Source of the DNA: a virus | DNA: 25,570 bases | IMG/VR virus record: IMGVR_UViG_3300025483_000064 | Span: 1 to 25,570 of that record | Strand: one strand, 5' to 3' | Shown: positions 2,282 through 15,561 of the stretch, one piece after another | Numbering within the stretch: position 1 is the stretch's first letter | How the letters are laid out: the number at the start of each line of letters is the position of its first letter | Made by a program: the position numbers and the translations under genes | Notes under the pieces: model-generated | What the model saw: only the letters and a program-made list of their open reading frames with translations | What the model was told of the DNA's origin: nothing | Database searches by the model: none

Positions 2282-2677
2282 GTGCCAGATCTCGCTCCTT
2301 TTAAGGATTTAAAGGTTAATTTTAAACCACATCCGATTACTGGTGATTTACAAGTATCCAAAGAGGATGCTGCAATCAAACAGTCAATTATCAATTTACT
2401 AATGACTGTTCCTGGCGAGCGTCCCTTTCAACCAAATTTGGGATCTGGATTATCGGAGTTGTTGTTTGAACAACTAGATTTTGGCGTGGCAGCACTTATT
2501 AAGAATGAGATTAATGACACTGTTCGTAAATACGAACCAAGAGTGAACGTAGTTGGGTTGACAGTAGAACCTAACTTTGTTGATAATGCATTTGATGTAA
2601 ATTTTGAATTTGAGATTCGTGGTCGTGAAGACACTACACCACTACAAATTAACTTCCTTCTGCAGAGAACTCAATAA
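2282..2677 (+). CDS. 25: Baseplate wedge protein gp25
   Basis: At 131 residues it matches T4 gp25 (132) in length and belongs to the GPW/gp25 sheath-initiator family. The diagnostic part is residues about 41-67, MTVPGERPFQPNLGSGL and the following ELLFEQLDF, where the Glu-Arg-Pro region corresponds to the conserved EPR-type motif. The C-terminal strands (VNFEFEIRGR) fit the family. gp25 sits in the inner baseplate, contacts gp6 and gp53, and nucleates sheath polymerisation around the tube. The start is GTG at 2282: no in-frame ATG occurs before 2402, which would cut into the fold, and no clear Shine-Dalgarno precedes it. The stop overlaps the gp6 ATG by one base. Confidence 0.95.
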   Translation: MPDLAPFKDLKVNFKPHPITGDLQVSKEDAAIKQSIINLLMTVPGERPFQPNLGSGLSELLFEQLDFGVAALIKNEINDTVRKYEPRVNVVGLTVEPNFVDNAFDVNFEFEIRGREDTTPLQINFLLQRTQ

Positions 2678-4473
2678 TGAAGTACGTTCAGGTTAGTAAT
2701 TTAGATTTTACCGATATCAAGACCGAACTCAAGGATTACTTGAGATCAAAGTCAGATTTTACTGATTTTGATTTTGAAGGTTCTGTATGGGCAAACCTAT
2801 TAGATGTATTAGCATATAATACATACTATACTGCATTCAACACCAATATGGTGACGAATGAGTTGTTTCTAGAGTCTGCTACTTTAAGAGATAATGTAAT
2901 CACACTAGCGAAACAACTAGGATATAAACCAAAATCTGTTGTTTCACCTCAAGCAGTAGTTAATTTTAAAGTAACGTTTCCTGGTACGGCACCTTCTAAT
3001 ATTATTCTTAAGAAGGGTACGGGATTTGTAACTACATTTGATGATAAACTGTATCGTTATGTTGCTATTGATGATATTAAAGTACCTGTAGCAAATAACG
3101 AGGCATTCTTCACAAACATATCTGTGTATGAAGGTAGTTTAATTACAAACCAATTTGTAGTTGATACTTCTTTGTCCAGGCAACAATATATTTTATCCAA
3201 CTCAAATACCGATACGAGCACTATTAGGGTGAGAGTATTTGAGTCTCCAACGTCATCGTCGTTTGTATATTACAACCAAATCGATACTATTATCGATGTT
3301 ACCTCTGAAGATAACATTTATTATGTTGATGAGTCATTAGATGAACAGTATCAGTTATTCTTTGGTGATGACGTTATTGGCAGGGCATTAGATAATGATC
3401 AAGTAGTTGATGTATCATATTTGATTACAAGTGGTGAGGCGACTAATGGTGCTTCCCAGTTTACTTTTGCTGGTACTTTACTTGATGAGTCTGATCAAGT
3501 ATATCCAGTAGTTGTCACTAATATTGAAACTGTCTCCAAATCTTCTGGTGGTGCAAATATTGAATCCATTGATAAAATTAAATTCAATGCTCCGAAACAA
3601 TATGCAACACAAAACAGAGCAGTAACTGCTAAAGACTATGCAGCAATTGTAAGAAAGATTTATCCAGCAGTATCTGACATCATTGTATATGGTGGTGAAG
3701 AGGAAAGATATCCAGAATATGGTAAGGTAAAGATTATTATCAAGCCAAATAGTGGTTCTTCACTATCAACATTCACAAAACAACAAATTAGTGAAGGTCT
3801 GAAAGATTATGCAGTTGCATCAGTCACTGCAGACATTTTAGATCCTTCCGTAGTTTATATTGAGATTACTAGTTCAGTATATTATAATACTAGAGAGACT
3901 ACACAATTTCCAGAAGAAATTAGATCTAAAGTTATTAGTGCTGTAGATGAGTATACTAAACTATCAGAAACCGAGCAGTTTAATGGTAAGTTTAGATATA
4001 GTAAGTATGTTGGTGTGATTGACGAATCTGATGTGTCTATCAACTCAAACACTACCAGTATTATGTTGCGTAAGGATTTTTATCCTGCAATGAATTCTAC
4101 TTATTATTATGAGTTATGTTTTCAAAATTCTTTCAAAAAATCTTGTGATGGACCTGTACTACAAAGTACTGGTTTTAAGGTTAGTGAGTATCCCACTTAT
4201 ACTGTATATTTTGAAGATCGGGATGGAAAAATTGTCCTATATAGAATAGATCCTGCGACTGGAGAAAAAGTTGTTTTAAAAGATGACTTGGGAACAGTTG
4301 ACTATGTAGAAGGTGAAATCAAACTGTATGATGTAACTATCGTTTCTGGTAGTTTCTTTGATAATAGAATTCAGGTTAGGGTACAACCTGCTAGTAACGA
4401 TATCAATGCAGAAAGAAGTCTATATCTAGATGTAGACATTAGTAATAGTAAATTCACGGTATATCCAGAGTAA
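2677..4473 (+). CDS. 6: Baseplate wedge protein gp6 (baseplate J-like)
   Basis: A 598-residue homologue of T4 gp6 (660 residues), the protein that joins the six wedges into the inner baseplate ring and triggers the shape change on contraction. The N-terminus (DIKTELKDYLRSKSDFTDFD, then GSVWANLLDVLAYNTYYTAF) is typical of gp6/baseplate-J proteins. The core around residues 308-420 carries the conserved QNRAVTAKDYAAIVRKIYP, VSDIIVYGGEEERYPEYGKV and KIIIKP stretches. It starts with ATG sharing one base with the gp25 stop and ends four bases before the giant gene. A neighbour order of 25 then 6 is common in marine T4-like phages. Confidence 0.95.
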   Translation: MKYVQVSNLDFTDIKTELKDYLRSKSDFTDFDFEGSVWANLLDVLAYNTYYTAFNTNMVTNELFLESATLRDNVITLAKQLGYKPKSVVSPQAVVNFKVTFPGTAPSNIILKKGTGFVTTFDDKLYRYVAIDDIKVPVANNEAFFTNISVYEGSLITNQFVVDTSLSRQQYILSNSNTDTSTIRVRVFESPTSSSFVYYNQIDTIIDVTSEDNIYYVDESLDEQYQLFFGDDVIGRALDNDQVVDVSYLITSGEATNGASQFTFAGTLLDESDQVYPVVVTNIETVSKSSGGANIESIDKIKFNAPKQYATQNRAVTAKDYAAIVRKIYPAVSDIIVYGGEEERYPEYGKVKIIIKPNSGSSLSTFTKQQISEGLKDYAVASVTADILDPSVVYIEITSSVYYNTRETTQFPEEIRSKVISAVDEYTKLSETEQFNGKFRYSKYVGVIDESDVSINSNTTSIMLRKDFYPAMNSTYYYELCFQNSFKKSCDGPVLQSTGFKVSEYPTYTVYFEDRDGKIVLYRIDPATGEKVVLKDDLGTVDYVEGEIKLYDVTIVSGSFFDNRIQVRVQPASNDINAERSLYLDVDISNSKFTVYPE

Positions 4474-4477
4474 CTAG

Positions 4478-7400
4478 ATGAATACACAGATCTCTTCACT
4501 CATCGAAGATCAACTTCCAGGGTTTATTGTATCCGAATATGAGAACTTTAAGAAAGTTCTTGAATATTACTATGAGCATTTAGAGTCACCTGGAAATCCT
4601 TTAGACATTATTACAAATTTAACATCGTACTATGATGTTGATTTTTACGAGAAAAAGTTGTTGCAGGAGAGAACTACTCTTTCATCATCTTTAAATACTA
4701 CCGATACCACCATTATTGTTGCGGATGCCTCTTCGTTCCCGTTAAAAAATGGTTATGTTAAAATTGGTAATGAGATTTGCTTTTATAAAGAAAGAACTAG
4801 TACAGAACTTTTAGAAGTTTCCCGAGGAGTTAGTGGTACTACACAACTTGGTGATTTATATACTAAATCAAAATTTGTTTCTGAAGAAGCAACGTCTCAT
4901 GATTTATCATCCAATGTTGATAACTTAAGTCATCTATTTTTATATGCTATTGTAAAATCATTTGAAAATCAATACCTAGAGTCTTTTCCAGAAGCATATC
5001 TCAAATCTGATGTAGACAAGAGAACTTTAATTAAAAATATCTCTAATTTTTATAAAGTAAAAGGAACTGACAAATCTATTAGATTTATTTTTAATAGCAT
5101 TGTAGATAAAAGTAATGATGATGTTCCTACAACATACAATCCAAAAGATCAAACTTTAAAAAGTTCTGTTTCTGATTGGGAATCTTCTTATGTTGTTCAA
5201 GCAAAAGTTATTTCTGGAAATCCTCAATGGTTATTGGGTCAAACAATAATCCAACAATCGGATAATAATATTAAACTAAATTATGCATCTGCAATTGTAG
5301 AAAACTTTTATTCTGTAGATTCTGATGGGGACGACCAACTTTTCAATTTAGTTATTAATCCATCATCATTAAATTCAGAATTTGCGGTTCCTCAAAAAAC
5401 TGTTCTGAATAGAACACTTACTCCCTCTATGACTACGGGAGATACTATTACAGTAGATTCTACATTTGGTTGGATATCTCCTGTTGGAGTTGTTGTCATT
5501 AATAGCGAAGTTATTTCTTATGAGGGTAAGAATGCTAGACAATTTGTAATCAAAAAACGCGGAAACATCACAAGAACTCATGGAGTTGGTGATGAGGTTA
5601 CTAGTTATTCTACACTTAAGGCAGTTACTCCTGATGGAGTAGTTTCTTTATTAGTATATGCAGTTTTAACTAATTTAGATATTGATGCTGCAGAACCATA
5701 TGCATCTATTAACGATAGGGTTCAAGTTTCAAATCCTGGTTTTGAAACTGCAGATCCGATTTTATTTGATTACTCTTCTTCAAATTATCGCTGGAAAGTA
5801 AATGTTACTGGAGACTCTCCATCAGTTCCTCTAAACCCTAGTGTGGGACAGGGTTTACAGAAGGTGCTTTCTGGCATAGGTGCGGTATATGAAGATAATG
5901 ATTTATATTATTTTACTACCTCATCATATCCATCTACAAGCATTTTGACAGCATCTGTCGGTGAAACATTATCAGATCCTGAATTACTTAAAATCGTTCC
6001 TAAACAGACAACCACAACATCAGAAGTTTACAAAACACCTAGAAGGGACATTGGTATTTTTGTTGATGGTTCGATTGCATTTGGATATAAAGATGAAGAT
6101 CTAATTGAATATGGTCCTATCACCAATTTTACGATTTCTAGTAGAGGATCTGGATACCAAAGACCTCCATTTATTTTAATTAATGGTGTAAATGATAAAG
6201 CGAGTGCTAGATTGACGGGAGATACTGTAACAGAAATTATTAGCACTGACAATTCTACCAACTACACTTCTCCTCCTACAGTAGAGATTGTTAGTGGCAG
6301 AAATGCTGTATTAGAAGCTATTGTAACATCAGGAGAAGTTACTAGTATTCGTATCGTCAATCCAGGTGAATATTATTCATCTCCTCCTATTGTTGTGATA
6401 AGTGATTTTGGTGGTAGAGGTAGGTTTGCAGAATACCAGGCATTAATTTCTCCACAAGGACAAATTGTAGAACTAGTAAAGATAGATGGAGGTAAATTTT
6501 ATACTCAAGAGAATATACAAGTTACTGTAGTTCCAGATGCGAATTCAAATAATGCTACTGCTACTGCAAATATTCGCGAATGGGTTAAGAACAGACATTT
6601 TACTGCTAACTTGGATGACAATGGAGGATTAGTTGTACCAGGTTACAATAGAAATAAAAATTACTATGGAGTAATCTCAAATCCAAGAAGATTGAGATTA
6701 AGGTTAAGTGATAATATTGCAACTACTACTTTACTAGAAACTACTGCTGCAAAAACTCACTCACCCATTTTAGGTTATGCGTATGACGGTAATCCTATTT
6801 ACGGACCATATGGATTTGAAAATCCATTAAACTCCACTTCTGATATTGTTAGAATGGAGAGTGGGTATTCTCTTAAAGTAAGTAGAGTAGATGGTCCTGT
6901 AGATGCACCATATCCATTGGGAACATTTGTTGACGATTATCAGTGGACACCAACTGTAGATACAGGAAAAAGAAGATTAGATGTTAATAATGGAAGATTT
7001 TGCGTAACACCAGAGTTTCCTAATGGAGTATACGCATACTTTTTAACAGTTGACCAAACAGGAACACCAGTATTTCCATATGTTTTGGGAGAAAATTATT
7101 ATTCTTTGCCAGTAAAGTCTAACTACGAATCTGATGTTACTCAAAGTTCTCTTCCAAGAAATGTAAAGAGACTGTTTATTCCGGGAACACAAAAAAATGG
7201 CAAATCAGAAATTGCAATTATTGCTTCTGTTTCTAAAGGTTCCGTTTCTTCAGTAGTTGTTGAAGATTCTCAACCTAACTTTACTGTCGGTTCAAAAATT
7301 TACGTTGATGATTCTGGCACAGGAGGATTTGGTGCTACTGGTGTAGTTTCATCAACTTTCGGAAAATCAGTTACTTCTTTAGAATCTAGAGAAACAAAAG

Positions 7401-10400
7401 CATCTGTATTGACGACAGTACAACCTTTTTACTCTTTTGTTGGGGATACTATTACTCAACCAGCAACTGGAGCAACTGGAGAGTTGCTTCGAGATACTAT
7501 TGAAGAGACGACATTTGTTTTAAGATCTATCAATAATAAATTTGAACCTGGTTATTCTGTTCAATCCAGTTCTACAGTTTTAAACCTTCTATTAAACCAA
7601 AGTAGTACATATGAACAGGGAGCAACGTTAGAATTAGTATTTTTTGAAGACCCAACCAATGTAATCGCTAGTTCTACAGTTCTTTCAGGAACTTTAGAAC
7701 AGAACTCTGTAAGAGTGAAAGTTAATAGTGGTAATTTTTCAGACTATTTAAATTATGAAGAAGGAGAAACAATTTTAAAAAGCAGTAATCTTACTAATAC
7801 TGCTGGATCAGAAATTGTCATTATTAATAATTTAAGTTCTAATATTGACATCACAACAGTAGATGAATCTATTGCTATTGCAGAAACTGTAGGAGCACAT
7901 GATTTTGCAGAAGGTGATGCAGTTGATATTCAAATTGATCCGGATGAAGCAACTACAGAAACACTGTATTATGTTGCTAAAAAACAATACCAAGAATTAA
8001 ATCTCAATCCACAAACTTTTAGTGGAAAAGTGAATGATACTGGAATTGGATCATCTAATATGATTGGTTTGGGTAGAGATTATGTAGGAGGAGTATACCA
8101 AGACGTAGAACTCATTTTTAGTGATTTTACTAATGTTCGAGATGGTGTTGGGTCTGCAGGAGATTCTAATAATGCTAAAGCAACAGTAACTGTAAATACA
8201 ACCAATTTTGATAATAGTGGTCAAATCGAGTCCATTGTAGTTACTGACGCTGGAAGTGGGTATAATTCAGATGATATTTTAACTATTAACCCAGCAAGTA
8301 TTCTAAAACCAGATCCCTCCGATCTTGATATTTCCATCGATCCCGACATGGTTTTACTCAATCAAGATGTGATTGATGCTTACCTAACTGGATATTTTCA
8401 AGTAAATACTGCTGATGTAGATGCTGTTACAACTTTTTTAGGAGAACCGGGAACTATTTTTGTAGATGGTAACGGAGGTGAGTATGTTTACACTGGTTAT
8501 AACGAAACTGATGAATGGTTTACATATTTGGAAACTGTTCCTGGAGAATCTTTACAAGTCACTGATACTCTAGATGGGATTGGAATTACGCTAGTAGGTC
8601 AAACTACTAGCCCAGGAGCTCCATTGCCCCAGTATAGATTTGATGTTGATGGACAAGAAAATCCATCTTATACTATTCGAGTAGGGTCTACTTTTACGTA
8701 TAATCCTATTTCAGCATCACAAGGTGTGCATCCAGTATGGTTTGTTTCTGATTACTCTACTAACGTTAGGGAAGATGGTGTTGCATTAGAAATTGCAACA
8801 TCCACTCCATCAAATGAAGCAACTAACAATGGGTCTACTGATGATACACAAAATATTGTATTTACTCCAACAATTCCCGGTACATACTATTTTGTTTGTA
8901 TAAGTCATCCAGAAGCAGTTGGTACTATCAATGTTGAGCCAGCACCAAGTACTGCTATTCCTTTAGTATCTGTTAATGCTGTAGGTCTTGGCGTAGAGAG
9001 AACAGATATTGTATTAGATAAAGTATTCTCTCTTTCTGAAAATGATCTTTTAGAAGTAGGAAGTGAAATTGTAAAAGTGACATCAGTAGATACAGTTAAT
9101 CGTAAAGTTGGATTAGAAAGAGGTGTTAATGGAACTAGTGCTTTAAACCATCTCGCAGGATCTACAGTACTATCTTATAAACCTAGATATAGATTTACTC
9201 CAGGAGCTCAACTCTTTGGAAATGATGTCAATGATCCATATGTAGTTTCATACGACGAAAATACACACAAGTTAGTTATTAACTACGGGTTTGATGCTGT
9301 CAACCCTAGAGAACTAACTAAAGTTTCATCTTTTGCTGATCAAAGTGCTCCTGCAAAAATTGTATCTGTATCCAGTGTATCTTCGTTGAATGATAGGTTA
9401 CTATTTTCATTAGATAATGTAAACTACTTGACCAACCCCATTATCGATATTCAAAAATATTATTTCTATAAATTTGATACTAGTCATCCTTCAATGCTTG
9501 GATCGTATTTAGATATTTCTACCAGCGCAAATTATAATGTGTTTACTGAAGAAAAAGAAGTTGGATTAGCAGAACCTGGCAATGCTGGATCATTCGTAAG
9601 GATCAGATTGGGATATGGTGCAAATATTGGCGATATTAAAAGAAAAACTGTTGATTACACTACTTATTATTATTTCTTAACCAGTTCACAAACAGATACT
9701 AATAATTCTTTCTTGAGAGTAAAAGAGGATCCTCTTGCTGGACTTAAGAGAGTTGTATTCACAACCGAAAATAAATTTGTTTATTCGTTGAATGACATTC
9801 CTCAATATGACGGGTCAGGAGATATTAGATATACTGGCAGGTCTGTAGGAAAAATCGCTTCTATTAAATTAGATAATCTTGGAGAGAACTACGAATCTCT
9901 TCCAGTAATTAAAGGTGTTGTTCCTGCTCCAGGATATAGAGCAGAAGTAACAGCACTTCGTGATGCATCCACAAATTCTATTAGTAGTTTGACAATTGAT
10001 TTTGCTGGTCAGGGATATTCTTCTCCCAAAGCAGTTGTTTCTGGTGACGGAACTGGACTAGAAATTGAAGTACAAAGTGATGGTGGTATGATTACCGCAG
10101 TTAAAATTATAAATGGCGGTAGAAACTACTTATCAACACCAAAAATTGATATTATAGAGACCGATAATAAATTGTTTTTTGAGTCAACTGATATTGGCAT
10201 TCCTCAAAGTATTAGGTTTATTAACTACGGATCATTTTATTTTGACGATGATTCAATTAAATCTTTCTACGAATCTCCACAAGTTTTAACCTTGTATAAC
10301 TTTGATTTAGATTCTTTTGCTGATGGAGAAATCATTGAGCAAAAAATAAATGGAGTTGTTTTTGCTTCTGGTAAAGTTGCTTCTAATGGATGGAATAAAG

Positions 10401-13683: not shown

Positions 13684-15561
13684 ATGGCTGCTATTATCTC
13701 GGAAAAGTTCAGAATTTTTAATGCAAAGCAGTTCCTAGAATCCCTGTCAGAAGGTTCTAGTGACACTGGCAGTGAAAGGAGTAGAATGTACTTCTTTGTT
13801 GGTAGACCCCAGGCATGGGAGTCTTATTTAGAAATCTATTCAACAGACGGAGCAGACTCGTTTGCCGTTGGTGATGGAGTCTATGTCGGAGCATCATGGG
13901 CAGGAGCAACTTTCAAAGCAACTGTAACCAAAGTTCTTGATAACTCTTTGCTTCTTTCAAGCATTGGTCCTCTAGTTACCGATGCTCCTGCTCTCGGTTC
14001 GACGTTAACGGGTTATAATCAGACAACTAATGCAGATAAGTTAGTAACAGCAACTACGGGAGTATACAGATTCTCCACAGAAAATATTCCTCCGGTTCCT
14101 CTAGATAACCAAACTGAAAAATATCATATCTATGATGATATTATTGCTGCCAAAAGAATCACTAGTTCTTATGCTAGACATGTTGTAAGACGTTACAACT
14201 GGAATTTGATTGATAATCCAAAATTTGACATGTGGAAACCGGATTACTTTGCTACTCCAGCAGGTGGTGGTCAAGTAGGTAAGTCTACGGCATTGGGAGG
14301 AACGTCTATCTCTAATGCAAAATTTTATATCATGAATCAATCGTATGAAGTATTTAAGTGTCTCTATAATGGAGAATCTGTAGCGAATCCTACTGGCGTA
14401 AACATTGCTCACGAACCAAAGACCAGTCCTCAAGCTGGTTTAGGTACTTACTCAAACGGCATTTTTACTGCTCCTGACAATTCTTATGTCTGGAAGTATA
14501 TGTACACCATCCCAACTGATGATGTATTGGCATTCTTGTCTACTGATTTTATGCCAATCAATGCTGCTGGAGAAACAACTAGAGTAGCAACCGAAGCAGC
14601 TGCAACTGATGGTGCTTTGGATATTGCTTTAATCAGCAACCCAGGCACTCTCACTGCTCCTGTATCGGGTACATTCTATGCTTCTGTAGTAGGAGATGGT
14701 CAAGGTGCTGTAGCAGAAGTCACGGTCGATGCAGGAGTAGTTACTGTTGCTAAAGTAATCACACCAGGATCTGGTTATACTTATGCATCTATTCCTTTCG
14801 TTACCGGTGTTCCTTTGGGTACTGCTGGAAGCACAGAAGCTATTGGATTGTTTGCAGATTCTGCACTCACAACTCCAGAAACTGTAACTGCAACCGATAC
14901 TCCTGCATTAGATCCTATTCTTCCTCCACAAGGTGGTCATGGTTCTGATTTTGAGATGGAACTTAACTCCAAGAGAGTTATGACAAACATTCGCCTCACT
15001 TTCATTGAGAATGCTGGCGACTTCCCTGTAGATAATGACTTCCGTCGTATTGGTATTATCAAAGATCCCCTTGAGTACGGTACATCTACTTTCGCCACAT
15101 CAGATACTCTTAATGGTCTGAAAGCAATCAAGATTACTGGAGCGACTGGGAATTATATTTCTGATGAAATGATTACCCAAACTGTTGGTGGAGGATCTGC
15201 ATATGGTACTGTAGTTTCTTGGACTCTTGATGCAGGAAGTCCTTCTCCCACACCAAGCACTCCCGGAAGTGGCGTTCTTAAGTACATTCAAACACCAAGT
15301 CTTCATAAAGACACTGGAGTTGTAAGAGCATTTGAGTCAGATGCCGCAAATAATGTGACCGGATCTCAATCTGGATCAGTAGGAACTGTAGAAACTGCTT
15401 TAGTAGACGGAACTGAATTAGTTGGTTCTATCTTTACGGATGGTTTAGCAAATCCAGAAATTGAAAATAACTCTGGAGATCTTATATACATAGAGAACAG
15501 AAGACTAATTACTAGAGCAGCTGATCAAATTGAAGATATCAAGTTAGTCATCGAGTTCTGA
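13684..15561 (+). CDS. 8: Baseplate wedge protein gp8
   Basis: The 625-residue product aligns in order with T4 gp8 (334 residues) but is almost twice as long. Matching segments are the N-terminal KFR and FVGRPQAWES (T4 KFR, FGRSEPWSS), YVWKYMYTIPTDD at about 270 (T4 YVWEYLFEIPPDV), DFRRIGIIKDPLEYG at about 451 (T4 GFRQISIITNPLEAK), and the last 28 residues, GDLIYIENRRLITRAADQIE onward (T4 GEMIYMENRPPIIMAMDQTE). The extra length lies mainly in an insertion at about 300-415 with a GSGY module (residue 360), plus an enlarged N-terminal third. gp8 is a dimer in each T4 wedge, contacting gp6, gp7 and gp10. The ATG at 13684 lacks a Shine-Dalgarno sequence and is served by the doubled late promoter upstream. 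Confidence 0.95.
   Translation: MAAIISEKFRIFNAKQFLESLSEGSSDTGSERSRMYFFVGRPQAWESYLEIYSTDGADSFAVGDGVYVGASWAGATFKATVTKVLDNSLLLSSIGPLVTDAPALGSTLTGYNQTTNADKLVTATTGVYRFSTENIPPVPLDNQTEKYHIYDDIIAAKRITSSYARHVVRRYNWNLIDNPKFDMWKPDYFATPAGGGQVGKSTALGGTSISNAKFYIMNQSYEVFKCLYNGESVANPTGVNIAHEPKTSPQAGLGTYSNGIFTAPDNSYVWKYMYTIPTDDVLAFLSTDFMPINAAGETTRVATEAAATDGALDIALISNPGTLTAPVSGTFYASVVGDGQGAVAEVTVDAGVVTVAKVITPGSGYTYASIPFVTGVPLGTAGSTEAIGLFADSALTTPETVTATDTPALDPILPPQGGHGSDFEMELNSKRVMTNIRLTFIENAGDFPVDNDFRRIGIIKDPLEYGTSTFATSDTLNGLKAIKITGATGNYISDEMITQTVGGGSAYGTVVSWTLDAGSPSPTPSTPGSGVLKYIQTPSLHKDTGVVRAFESDAANNVTGSQSGSVGTVETALVDGTELVGSIFTDGLANPEIENNSGDLIYIENRRLITRAADQIEDIKLVIEF

Follow-up and report, generated by a model that had tools for sequence, protein, structure and literature searches.

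The window (the whole 25.6-kb stretch of viral DNA analysed here) belongs to a T4-like marine cyanophage, and a giant baseplate protein encoded in it carries a domain that we read as a cupredoxin with a metal-competent Cys-His2 site, with a probability of roughly 55%. That the protein has a cupredoxin domain at residues 1278-1488 is itself nearly certain. The window holds a T4-like baseplate cluster with genes for a PAAR protein, gp25, gp6, the 3050-aa protein, gp8 and a protein of 2714 aa. Synechococcus phage S-CAM3 has gp25, gp6, its giant protein and a wedge subunit in the same order. As in the VrlC-like proteins of T4-like marine phages, the 3050-aa gene lies between gp6 and gp8 and matches PHROG families classed as virion structural or baseplate wedge, and an ortholog is annotated VrlC in KF156338.1. 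The reading frame, its neighbors and these family matches thus agree with the initial annotation, which had placed the domain in a 3050-residue baseplate protein (Table 1). The next domain downstream of the cupredoxin, residues 1502-1570, superimposes on a baseplate chain of phage JBD30 (VIA-align Z 10.0, rmsd 1.7, 69 residues).

Table 1. Features of the giant baseplate protein and its neighbors, in window positions.
Feature	Position	Strand	Basis or remark
VrlC-like giant baseplate/virion structural protein, 3050 aa	4478..13630	+	between gp6 and gp8; carries cupredoxin domain
gp6 baseplate wedge (context)	2677..4473	+	
gp8 baseplate wedge (context)	13684..15561	+	
Whole cupredoxin insertion, residues 1278-1488	8309..8941	+	ortholog insertion limits; fold matches over residues 1279-1488
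Putative small alpha/beta module nested in cupredoxin, about residues 1294-1376 (approximate limits)	8357..8605	+	second AF2 model and cupredoxin alignments
His1418 (= amicyanin His53)	8729..8731	+	within GVHPVWF; profile alignment
Cys1474 (= amicyanin Cys92)	8897..8899	+	profile alignment
His1477 (= amicyanin His95)	8906..8908	+	profile alignment
Ala1480 (GCA), axial position (= amicyanin Met98)	8915..8917	+	Met in S-CAM1
Next domain downstream, residues 1502-1570	8981..9187	+	similar to phage JBD30 baseplate domain

The assignment to the cupredoxins comes from the family and from predicted structure. The window sequence scores under the Pfam gathering thresholds of PF00127 (Copper-bind) and PF13473 (Cupredoxin_1), at 13.6-15.2 bits vs. 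21.2 and 27, and at 17.5 bits does not reach the 110.2-bit cut-off of the amicyanin equivalog TIGR02657. Distant phage members of the family exceed the PF00127 cut-off, and a profile of nine phage sequences (the window and eight relatives) searched against the PDB matched rusticyanin, auracyanin A and amicyanin with E-values of about 1e-7. An AF2 model of residues 1376-1496, made with 53 sequences, is confident (pLDDT 90.8). Like the model of the whole insert described below, it is a Greek-key beta sandwich of the 7-9-strand type. In VIA-align the best match to the core model was rusticyanin (Z 7.7), followed closely by NirK, purple cupredoxin and auracyanin, and the rows were mostly cupredoxins for the core (Z to 7.7) and for the whole insert (Z to 9.4). 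The cupredoxin-like fold proposed in the initial annotation is upheld by this profile and by the structure prediction that it had put forward as a check. Foldseek gave modest matches to the core model (E 3e-4, TM-scores about 0.4) and included Ig domains; its top row was the Ig domain 5ayq (3e-4) and its second the Cu(II) amicyanin M98A. An Ig-like sandwich with a chance His and Cys would account for these rows. It is strongly disfavored by the 1e-7 profile match to cupredoxins, by VIA-align Z-scores of up to 9.4 and by the family-wide His-Cys-His-Met set, and was rejected as having next to no probability.

The domain is larger than first described, as it seems to enclose a small alpha/beta module. 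In a second AF2 model, which spans residues 1195-1575 (pLDDT 89.9), the cupredoxin matches rise to Z 9.0-9.4 and cover model residues 85-294, i.e., protein residues 1279-1488. The first cupredoxin strands therefore fall at about residues 1279-1293; the stretch after them, some 80 residues long and reaching to about residue 1376, is a separate module. In this model the module appears to sit between the first strands and the rest of the cupredoxin; no Pfam family matched it. The limits given in the initial annotation, 8631-8940, thus missed the first strands, and the span is instead that in Table 1. In an ortholog alignment the stretch from about 1278 to 1487 is wholly absent in S-PM2, Syn1, S-RIM44, AG-345-P14 and others, and the limits of this insertion agree with those from the fold matches. 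The cupredoxin is an optional accessory domain that is present or absent as one unit. Two orthologous copies (L122 and L123) have unrelated sequence in place of the nested module.

The two His and one Cys that form the equatorial set of a type 1 copper site are present in the alignment with amicyanin (ligand numbering from PMC12723479). His1418 lies within GVHPVWF, and Cys1474 and His1477 lie within YYFVCISHPEAVG, which holds the only C-x-x-H in a protein with four Cys in total. In the AF2 model the first His starts one strand, the Cys ends the next-to-last strand, and the second His and the Ala precede the last strand. This topology and the structural alignments agree with the clustering of the three residues about one point that the initial annotation had proposed. 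An axial Met (or Gln/Leu) is missing, and Ala1480 occupies its place; the S-CAM1 ortholog reads HPEMVG, with Met at this position, and S-CAM3 is of the Ala type. The initial annotation had described three of four copper ligands and a lost axial Met, and both descriptions stand. The Asn or Ser that directly follows the first His in the second sphere of plastocyanin, amicyanin and azurin is Pro1419 in the window; in nearly all relatives this residue is Pro, Thr, Val or Ala. This, like the missing axial Met, speaks against a metal site. Judged by the profile match of about 1e-7 and by the retention of the same residues across relatives, the His1418/Cys1474/His1477 pattern is not due to chance.

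Ligand conservation was assessed in several sets of relatives. The motif that seeded the first search contained the Cys, so its conservation in that set is not evidence, and a set of orthologs was therefore fetched by the downstream flank, with no ligand presupposed (80 loci, 30 with the domain). Single-sequence scans of viral contigs were too poor (the domain returned one relative and the downstream flank two) and alignments were used for this reason; for the flank, 14 orthologs gave an alignment too varied to seed a scan, and a closer set worked. His/Cys/His is kept in 28/30 of the flank-fetched domain copies. The axial residue is Met in 17 (His-Cys-His-Met) and Ala in 11 (His-Cys-His-Ala), and the remaining two copies are decayed. 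In these (L120 and L126, just upstream of position 3001) the first His has become Asp or Lys and the Cys has become Val or Thr; the second His is retained and the axial residue is Ala in both. Since they have the domain yet neither the first His nor the Cys, the domain can serve without the site. All 31 distant phage copies have His-Cys-His-Met, a set of which the search seed contained the Cys alone, and several of these copies are in proteins with matches to tail fibre, tail spike or wedge-fibre connector families. When nine distinct Ala-type copies were compared, His/Cys/His was found in 9/9; invariance of the three ligands in the Ala group is weakly unexpected by chance (p = 0.04). Ligand retention in the nine Ala-type copies and the complete sets in relatives favor a live metal site.

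The decayed copies raise a serious alternative, namely that the domain is a relic kept as a scaffold or adhesin while its metal site is going, Met first and His and Cys next. We consider this unlikely for the window. The axial Met is gone in the window lineage, and L120 and L126, with Ala at that position and the first His and Cys lost, look like the next step; they are on long branches, and by their flanks they fall among orthologs that lack the domain. The rate of change is also as a relic would have it. When the window is compared with its nearest relative, the insert and the rest of the protein differ at synonymous sites to a similar degree, while protein change in residues 1278-1487 is about 4.6 times the rest (Fisher p = 1.3e-6). 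The pN/pS in the same comparison is 0.68 for the cupredoxin, 1.57 for the nested module (the highest in the protein) and 0.22 elsewhere, making the insert the fastest-evolving part of the giant protein. The excess over 1 in the nested module is not significant (p = 0.5), and positive selection is therefore not claimed. Fast protein change fits an exposed accessory domain or relaxed constraint alike. Against a relic stand the three ligands in all nine Ala-type copies and the Cys/His loop, PGTYYFVCISHPEA, which is identical in the window and its nearest relative though about a fifth of the domain differs. The Ala types also occur in several groups, as a stable state would give. Taken with the fast protein evolution of the insert, the decayed sister copies mean that site decay does occur.

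In the flank and domain trees, which have many weak forks, Ala types and Met types are each found in several groups, and the codons at the axial position are ATG vs. GCN. The axial residue has thus changed more than once, or the domain has been exchanged between phages. We regard the site in the window as a derived form, free of an axial ligand, of a copper-type site found repeatedly in the tail proteins of marine phages. Among cellular proteins, the closest relatives found were small cupredoxins of marine Bacteroidetes; proteins of Thaumarchaeota were more distant. The Bacteroidetes proteins (L186-L199) share the pattern HPFYL...AGTYYY.C..H..M with the distant phage copies and are a possible source or recipient of these; they differ in being cellular, with complete ligand sets, and are not in virion proteins.

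Copper binding by an Ala-type domain is plausible by analogy with amicyanin. Paracoccus amicyanin is a fold match with a ligand loop of equal length, C-x2-H-x2-(M/A), and an HP after the Cys. The engineered M98A form lacks the same axial Met, and its PDB title describes a Cu(II) structure (PDB 2idq); amicyanin axial-ligand mutants with novel copper sites are among the work cited in PMC4059628. As M98A still holds copper, the window domain is best read as a natural axial-ligand-free cupredoxin site in a baseplate. There are also differences. Amicyanin is a free periplasmic electron carrier, whereas the window domain is part of a phage baseplate protein, has no Asn after the first His and scores far under the equivalog cut-off. 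The best structural matches, rusticyanin, auracyanin and the N-terminal cupredoxin domain of NirK (2dv6), reach Z 7 to 9.4, but all have an axial ligand, which the window lacks, and are cellular electron transfer proteins or enzyme domains; rusticyanin in addition has longer ligand loops than the window. The purple cupredoxin Nmar1307 of Nitrosopumilus maritimus (5fc9) is a fold match at Z 6.6 and, by the title of a paper referenced in PMC6790972, has a type 1 center with an open binding site; it is a free archaeal protein and not viral.

That the window domain binds a metal at all is somewhat more probable than not. A site of one Cys and two His can accommodate various soft or borderline ions, and nothing measured for the window site is copper-specific, so that a Cys-His2 site for another ion (Zn, Fe, Ag/Hg), or a plain thiol, may be imagined in place of a copper site. 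Such a site is improbable given that the relatives combine a cupredoxin fold with His-Cys-His-Met, the complete ligand set of type 1 copper. We find it less probable still that the domain is a redox or electron-transfer domain acting at the host surface. Most cupredoxins carry electrons (PMC4059628), and the Nitrosopumilus purple cupredoxin, with its open site, oxidizes NO (PMC6790972), but neither a redox partner nor another metal site could be seen in the window, which has a single cupredoxin copy.

For the metal-competent cupredoxin that we prefer, the following course can be proposed. The ancestor would be a phage cupredoxin family with the complete type 1 set (His, Cys, His, Met), from which the window lineage would have lost the axial Met only. 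His1418, Cys1474 and His1477 would most likely still bind a single soft metal ion, with copper the first candidate, in a trigonal geometry that lacks an axial ligand. Little free copper is expected in the host cytoplasm, the place of virion assembly, and the ion would on this account be loaded after lysis, once the virion has left the host. The bound ion may then act as a clamp that rigidifies the exposed domain at the host surface; with no partner to be seen, we favor a structural clamp over electron transfer. Such a clamp role in host contact is doubtful. The predicted fold, the places of the ligands in the sequence, the optional insertion, the keeping of the three ligands and the fast protein change are results of the analysis; surface exposure, metal binding, the choice of copper, the role in host contact and a role of the metal in seawater are all points that we infer.

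Copper-protein domains are known as cellular electron carriers. Free plastocyanin (petE) is already known in cyanophages (PMC2984593) and is likewise a cupredoxin encoded by marine cyanophages, but it is a separate metabolic gene and not a domain of a virion protein. A search of the literature outside subscription papers returned no paper on cupredoxin domains in phage virion proteins. Metal ions on marine phage tails have been proposed in the form of iron sites (the Trojan Horse or Ferrojan hypothesis; PMC11705849), which differ from the present site in the metal, in their HxH motifs in fibre tips and in their unrelated fold. Since close relatives of the window domain have all four ligands, copper may be borne by some ocean phages at the very part of the virion that meets the host. 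More tentatively, and with the odds somewhat against it, many marine phages might carry virion copper in complete type 1 sites of tail and baseplate proteins, with the window lineage as an axial-ligand-free variant, like amicyanin M98A, at the host-contact face; this would be a copper counterpart of the iron hypothesis. If it is true, a recurrent copper-type ligand set in virion proteins would mean a trace metal bound on the exterior of the particle, which would affect adsorption, virion stability and marine copper speciation. Natural controls exist within the family, where the same gene occurs in forms with an axial Met, an axial Ala, a decayed site or no domain at all.

The giant protein has other features of its own. 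A YHYH domain (PF14240, E 1.1e-26) is found at residues 749-861 (window 6722-7060); this domain has been predicted to be a tail-associated Zn-dependent hydrolase (PMC7824862). A short module with an RGVxGTxxxxH-like end seems to be repeated at residues of about 105-122, 350-375, 1541-1558 and 3010-3040, and the copy in residues 1502-1570 is the match to the JBD30 baseplate domain. Among the other phage proteins collected, four (in L054, L074, L076 and L085) carry the cupredoxin, or its closing motif, twice in one protein. A further phage protein (L041:485-4018) joins a subtilase (Peptidase_S8) to a cupredoxin domain, and a similar match in S-H9-1 is annotated as a subtilisin-like protease.
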